This document shows, one piece after another, positions 2,474-2,690 of a DNA stretch of 46,350 nt; position 1 is the stretch's first letter, and the number at the start of each line of letters is the position of its first letter. The stretch is from Conexibacter sp. (lineage in GTDB: Bacteria; Actinomycetota; Thermoleophilia; Solirubrobacterales; Solirubrobacteraceae): contig JAOPZA010000168.1 of NCBI GenBank assembly GCA_025964325.1, forward strand, positions 1 to 46,350. Reading direction: 5' to 3'. A model generated the notes under the pieces. It was not told the origin of the DNA, searched no databases, and worked only from the letters and a program-made list of their open reading frames with translations. The translations under genes and the position numbers were made by a program.

Positions 2474-2690
2474 TGCGCCCGACGGGATTCGAACCCGCAT
2501 CTTGCGGGCCCTAAACCCGCCGCTCTTGAGCTGACTTTCGACACATGCGCTCGGACGAGGGCCGCGAACAGCGGCTACAGCCACCGGCGAGGGAAGGTTT
2601 TGGGCCCCGAGCCTGCCGGCTAGAAGGCTAACTCCCGCCTCCGCGCATGCACCTATTCGATTCGCCGTTGACCAGTTGAGCTACGGACGC
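2474..2690 (-). tRNA. tRNA-like gene, anticodon UAG, with 142-nt D-loop insert
   Basis: Positions 2690-2668 (23 nt) and 2525-2474 (52 nt) join into a 75-nt type I tRNA. Acceptor GCGTCCG pairs with CGGGCGC (7 bp, one G-U); U8 A9; D-stem GCTC/GAGC; D-loop with G18 G19; G26; anticodon stem GCGGG/CCCGC; loop TTTAGGG giving anticodon UAG; 5-nt variable loop AAGAT; T-stem GCGGG/CCCGT with loop TTCGAAT; discriminator A73; no encoded CCA. A15-U48 is present. The anticodon loop and A73 are those of tRNA-Leu(UAG), but bacterial tRNA-Leu normally has a long variable arm, absent here. The two parts are separated by an insert at 2526-2667. A strong promoter lies upstream and a LeuRS-like gene downstream. 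Splicing is inferred; the RNA might instead act unspliced. Confidence 0.75.
2526..2667 (-). other. Structured 142-nt insert in tRNA D-loop (intron-like)
   Basis: The insert interrupts the tRNA-like gene between D-loop and 3' D-stem. Both junctions carry TCAA (2668-2671 and 2526-2529), so the exact boundary is ambiguous by up to four bases; the repeat also resembles a target-site duplication. An 11-bp helix with three wobble pairs (2653-2643 with 2550-2540) closes the insert into its own folded domain. It is shorter than known group I introns (about 200 nt and up), I find no group I P7-type core, and known tRNA group I introns sit in the anticodon loop. No ORF inside. Confidence 0.6.

Follow-up and report, generated by a model that had tools for sequence, protein, structure and literature searches.

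Two parts of a tRNA that lie 142 nt apart in a genome of Conexibacter sp. raise the question whether the gene is interrupted by a new kind of tRNA intron, or whether it encodes a tRNA-like RNA that keeps an extra domain. The locus is part of the window, i.e., the whole stretch of 46,350 nucleotides that was analyzed. With moderate confidence, comparison with related sequences points to a dedicated aaRS–tRNA pair: a tRNA that retains a folded D-loop domain, partnered by the product of the downstream gene, a LeuRS-family paralog. This pair probably serves an amino acid other than leucine.

The tRNA Gene in the Window

The tRNA gene lies on the minus strand, with its 5′ end at 2690 and the discriminator A73 at 2474. 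Its features, from the promoter onward, are the following.

2760..2765, minus strand: –35 element TTGACC, conserved in Conexibacter loci
2737..2742, minus strand: –10 element TATAAT, conserved in Conexibacter loci
2668..2690, minus strand: tRNA 5′ part GCGTCCGTAGCTCAACTGGTCAA, with the acceptor 5′ strand, U8, the D-stem 5′ strand, A14 A15 and G18 G19
2526..2667, minus strand: D-loop insert of 142 nt, a structured and probably retained domain at the same site in 13 loci, the exact ends of which are not definable
2643..2653, minus strand: 5′ strand of an 11-bp helix, 64% of cells paired in relatives
2617..2629, minus strand: 5′ strand of the insert core, AGCC, a 5-nt bulge TTCTA (consensus TTCAA) and GCCG
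2579..2586, minus strand: 3′ strand of the insert core, CGGT GGCT
2561..2575, minus strand: insert hairpin GCCGC-TGTTC-GCGGC, 65% paired overall, partly because distant rows are misaligned
2540..2550, minus strand: 3′ strand of the 11-bp helix, 64% of cells paired in relatives
2474..2525, minus strand: tRNA 3′ part, with the D-stem 3′ strand, the anticodon arm, a variable loop of 5 nt, the T-arm, the acceptor 3′ strand and A73
2511..2513, minus strand: anticodon UAG

The initial annotation had recognized a full type I tRNA in the two parts, which is borne out. When joined, they give a complete tRNA with anticodon UAG, in which every pair of the acceptor (7/7), D (4/4), anticodon (5/5) and T stems (5/5) is formed and U8/A14, A15–U48, G18G19, A73 and the T-loop are all in place. 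The acceptor domain is 7/5. The long variable arm of a type II tRNA-Leu is missing, the variable loop being 4 or 5 nt in the insert tRNAs. That earlier reading was incomplete in giving neither the strand nor the LeuRS paralog, whose gene is on the same strand, approximately 150 bp downstream.

Within the 46,350-bp window, on both strands, the 3′ half fits only one 5′ half, the true one. An exact-pattern scan of the genome contigs with the 3′ half gave no match. The Rfam tRNA model recovers only the 3′ portion (2550–2474, 34.2 bits) and uses GCGCATG in the insert as acceptor strand. An insert-free cloverleaf, the contrary outcome foreseen by the initial annotation, is thus on offer, but this candidate is rejected: the substitute acceptor strand is paired in 59% of cells in relatives with no double changes, compared with 100% pairing of the true acceptor stem in 13/13 sequences. 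A tmRNA identity was detected by neither ARAGORN nor Rfam, and the anticodon arm is complete. Elsewhere in the window, an ordinary tRNA-Pro(CGG) is located at 16333–16407 (minus).

The promoter TTGACC-17-TATAAT noted earlier is present, and a similar one was found in every Conexibacter locus examined. This genus, that of the window, is represented by C. arvalis DSM 23288, strains CPCC 205762 and CPCC 206217, and MAGs. The promoter is located 45–53 nt upstream of the tRNA in all Conexibacter loci, and for each locus 0 of 200 shuffles were as good. The gap between promoter and tRNA (2695–2735, minus) contains GAGCC...GGGGG...GGCTC, which is common to the Conexibacter loci and could form a leader hairpin. 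Another hairpin, GATCACCCG...CGGGTGATC, lacks a T-run and lies at 2395–2430, between the tRNA and the start of the paralog.

Long and Short Forms of the D-Loop Domain

Conservation in relatives, on which the earlier reading depended, is found. A search of the order and the class, followed by inspection of the loci, yielded 13 distinct loci with a long-insert tRNA in Solirubrobacterales, all with the insert at the same site and with D-loops of 137–153 nt. A seven-member Conexibacter group has the anticodon UAG, G053 and G146 have UUG, G064 has UUC, as does a second copy in G115, and G453 and G113 have UAA and CCU, respectively. The four tRNA stems are 100% paired in the 13 aligned sequences, and 4/5 pairs of the anticodon stem have changed on both sides.

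In the same alignment, the insert has a core of two stems with a 5-nt bulge (consensus UUCAA), in which 94% of cells are paired and three pairs have changes on both sides. Position and covariation are what support this core, not a generic count of the motif, as the number of single inserts with a stem-bulge-stem motif (12/13) is not convincing against shuffles (mean 6.7, maximum 12). In the hairpin at 2561..2575, the innermost C-G pair has become U-A in G422. Two elements to which attention had been drawn before fared less well. The 11-bp helix does exist in the window sequence, but in the alignment of Solirubrobacterales loci that had been asked for, only 64% of its cells are paired, so it is not the conserved feature of the insert. 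Likewise, the flanking TCAA repeats are present in the window sequence but are not conserved, with TAAC in their place in the close relative G422.

A short form, with anticodon UUC and a D-loop of 31 nt, was additionally revealed by a pattern search, run on 232 genomes of the order; it occurs in almost all genomes of the three genera g14, g39 and g41. Its extra part is a 7-bp hairpin within the D-loop, with 98% of cells paired and 5/7 pairs changed on both sides. This covariation indicates that the extra D-loop element is kept as structure, and a form that consists of such a hairpin cannot be a self-splicing intron.

These observations bear directly on the two options of the initial annotation. 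If the insert were a bacterial tRNA intron of a new kind, its removal would give a 75-nt tRNA, which is in line with the perfect joining of the exons and with a constant insertion site combined with divergent sequence outside the core. However, the insert matches no intron or ribozyme family (Rfam 15), the tRNA-splicing endonuclease PF01974 was absent from 8/8 genomes while it was found in four archaeal controls, the TCAA repeat and the 11-bp helix both lack conservation, and the short form has a covarying hairpin in the same loop. Lacking a known ribozyme, a splicing endonuclease and conserved boundaries, the intron is a weak explanation that we regard as quite improbable. A group I P1-like pairing in the insert (CUGGU / GCCAG) was rejected on sequence inspection because it is not conserved. 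The other option, a tRNA-like RNA in which an extra domain is kept, agrees with the structured insert at a shared site, the covarying core and the short hairpin form. Finally, the TCAA flanks could, from the window sequence alone, be taken as traces of a small mobile insertion that broke a tRNA gene and left a relic; given the conservation in 13 loci, the paired stems with their covariation and a promoter that is likewise conserved, this is scarcely credible.

The LeuRS-Family Paralog

The gene downstream of the tRNA encodes a protein that has kept the catalytic motifs of LeuRS, with a leucine pocket that is rewritten.

100..2316, minus strand: LeuRS-family paralog of 738 aa with the motifs HMGH and KMSK, a rewritten leucine pocket and no C-terminal domain

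The paralog scores 463.8 bits with TIGR00396, below the curated cut-off of 548.4, while a canonical LeuRS was found above this cut-off in 9/9 host genomes checked (962–1006 bits; 974 in G000). In a phylogenetic tree, the paralogs form one clade (100/100), which a long branch divides from the canonical LeuRS sequences encoded in these genomes. All intact paralogs retain HIGH and KMSKS (HxGH, KMSKH). The conserved EHAxxH segment of the leucine pocket (canonical GGVEHAILHLLYAR) is replaced by GxDxGxF-VFDQR in all of these, and canonical MLPYPSG reads xxxPFTSG; the replacement segments are themselves well conserved among the intact paralogs, and the C-terminal domain is missing. An AlphaFold2 model gives a confident LeuRS fold (pLDDT 85). 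Its best fold matches are all LeuRS, with 5ah5, AgnB2 LeuRS with tRNA, on top. Since both pocket histidines are lost, leucine is an unlikely substrate, judging by what is known of LeuRS biology. In E. coli, leucine identity is determined by A73, A15–U48 and G18G19, the anticodon and the long arm being ignored (PMC9976931). As the long-insert tRNA has these same determinants, a LeuRS descendant could plausibly charge it.

For the paralog, a phylum-wide search of 396 genomes returned only G000 itself and G168, the latter at 39% identity, near the level of canonical LeuRS. The paralog was absent from the viral contigs searched, and PADLOC places the aaRS in no defence family. A second, putative aaRS-derived gene is present near the tRNA locus, i.e., a long ORF at 5636–9172 (minus) that by eye resembles a LysX-type fusion of lysyl-tRNA synthetase with lysyl-phosphatidylglycerol synthase and has a repetitive linker rich in proline and alanine.

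Linkage and Co-Occurrence of tRNA and Paralog

All 13 long-insert tRNAs adjoin a LeuRS paralog gene. In Conexibacter, G453 and G064 the tRNA is upstream of the paralog, in G053 and G146 it is found downstream, and in G113 the two genes diverge. In the 232 genomes of the order, 45 have both an insert tRNA (long or short) and the paralog, four have the paralog alone and 183 have neither; the tRNA alone was seen in none, where in paralog-free genomes it was sought by fixed patterns only, which had missed the one of G453. The 49/232 genomes with a paralog include the degenerate copy of G113, and the four paralog-only genomes (G442, G446, G447 and G108) are all less than 80% complete. Fisher's test for this co-occurrence gives 9e-44, although members of one genus do not count as independent genomes. 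Stronger evidence than this value comes from G064, G453 and G113: in each of their genera, no other genome has the tRNA and no other has the paralog. G453 had been chosen on its paralog alone, and the insert tRNA was then seen directly upstream. In the genera with the short form, the genes for tRNA and paralog are unlinked; the partnership there therefore rests on co-occurrence.

The varying arrangement also bears on another explanation, i.e., that the element is a tRNA-like leader that regulates the paralog gene, comparable to tRNA mimics in the leaders of aaRS genes. In Conexibacter, the tRNA indeed sits between the conserved promoter and the aaRS gene. Yet all tRNA core contacts are kept, and because the tRNA follows the gene in G053 and G146, is divergent in G113 and is unlinked in the short form, regulation as a leader fails as a general account and is very unlikely.

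For a dedicated pair, the following course of events can be envisaged. The RNA would be transcribed from the conserved promoter, its ends would be processed like those of a tRNA while the insert stays in, and the product would be charged by the paralog. Going further, the paralog would load a non-leucine amino acid, and the D-loop domain would mark the tRNA for its own enzyme or for a downstream user and keep it apart from the normal pool. Some paralogs beside insert tRNAs have lost HIGH and KMSKS (L045:10214-11983 in G113 and L046:6818-8242 in G064). G064 has an intact paralog elsewhere (L197) and G113 has none, so charging cannot explain the G113 locus. As pseudo-synthetases, the degenerate copies may still bind the tRNA.

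A Threonine-Synthase-Like PLP Enzyme

A gene for a threonine-synthase-like PLP enzyme usually comes after the paralog in g14, in g39 and, within g41, in G053. Members of this group share at least 62% identity with the query, compared to 42–46% for canonical ThrC, and examples beside the paralog that are distinct from the ThrC of the same genome are located at L263:6142-7512, L264:6608-7999, L266:11572-12969 and L196:11-1411. The group occurs in 36/232 genomes, always together with the LeuRS paralog (36/36), and is lacking in Conexibacter. As a guess, the PLP enzyme may make or modify the amino acid of the pair. G146 and G053 have two pairs each, in which a long UUG tRNA goes with one paralog and a short UUC tRNA with a second paralog and a PLP enzyme (G146: L198 and L195 / L277; G053: L039 and L196 / L211).

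Possible Use of the Anticodon

The charged tRNA could also be used on the ribosome, where it would insert a different or non-canonical amino acid at its codons, resulting in conditional mistranslation or code expansion. Several observations are compatible with this. The anticodon loop CUUUCAA (UUC) is invariant in 14 distinct short forms, which suggests that the anticodon has a use; the anticodons UAG, UUG, UUC and UAA track the aaRS clades in the tree; and allo-tRNAs with foreign anticodons function in translation (PMC7609411). On the other hand, an ordinary type II tRNA-Leu(UAG) is present in G000 and in the complete genome G090, and G115 has an ordinary tRNA-Glu(UUC) alongside its insert tRNA(UUC), so decoding in these genomes does not depend on the insert tRNA. 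A pattern for tRNA-Glu(UUC) matches in G000, G090, G115 and G113 and gives no match in the short-form genera, where divergence is indistinguishable from absence. Moreover, 140 nt of additional RNA at the elbow would probably get in the way of EF-Tu or the ribosome. Ribosomal use is accordingly held to be unlikely, and the redundancy and diversity of the anticodons lead us to lean toward a use of the dedicated pair off the ribosome.

Comparison with Known Systems and Significance

Natural private aaRS–tRNA pairs, of which there are few, have brought to light new amino acids, such as pyrrolysine, and have supplied tools for expanding the genetic code. The PylRS system resembles the present one in having a private aaRS and an odd-shaped, co-occurring tRNA, in some lineages with a gene for an amino acid enzyme alongside. 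PylRS is a class II enzyme and tRNA-Pyl has a CUA anticodon that reads UAG codons, in contrast to the class Ia aaRS and the redundant sense anticodons described here. The combination of a tRNA-like end and an extra RNA domain recalls tmRNA, which carries a reading frame; D-stem and anticodon arm are missing in tmRNA, whereas the cloverleaf is complete here. Bacterial LeuRS (TIGR00396), including second copies such as AgnB2 (PDB 5ah5), has the same fold and catalytic motifs as the paralog. The latter differs from these by its score below the family cut-off, its missing C-terminal domain, its rewritten pocket and its non-leucine-type tRNA.

Allo-tRNAs (Mukai et al., 2017) are non-canonical tRNAs of soil bacteria that have many anticodons and are served by an aaRS ignoring the anticodon (reviewed in PMC7609411). 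They are similar to the insert tRNAs in their origin, in their varied anticodons and in the tie to an anticodon-blind aaRS, but have an 8/4 or 9/3 acceptor domain and use the ordinary SerRS, instead of a 7/5 domain, a D-loop domain and a dedicated LeuRS-family paralog. In tRNA-Sec, a feature of the D-arm marks the tRNA for the PLP enzyme SelA (PMC7609411). A D-arm feature and a PLP enzyme are found here as well, although a link between the insert and the ThrC-like enzyme is speculation, and tRNA-Sec differs in its long variable arm and its D-stem of 6 bp. In the open-access literature, nothing specific was found on LeuRS paralogs with a partner tRNA or on bacterial tRNAs with D-loop inserts. 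Tentatively, and as a possibility rather than an expectation, the locus could represent a natural private aaRS–tRNA pair unlike any described, for a non-standard amino acid that would in some lineages come from the adjacent PLP enzyme, with the D-loop domain as a badge of orthogonality.

ARAGORN, a standard tRNA finder, missed the D-loop-insert tRNA gene in the window, and others may therefore be overlooked. A LeuRS descendant with a rewritten pocket provides a concrete enzyme for tests with new substrates. A tRNA that tolerates, and apparently needs, a D-loop domain of 20 to 140 nt would shift the assumed limits of tRNA architecture.
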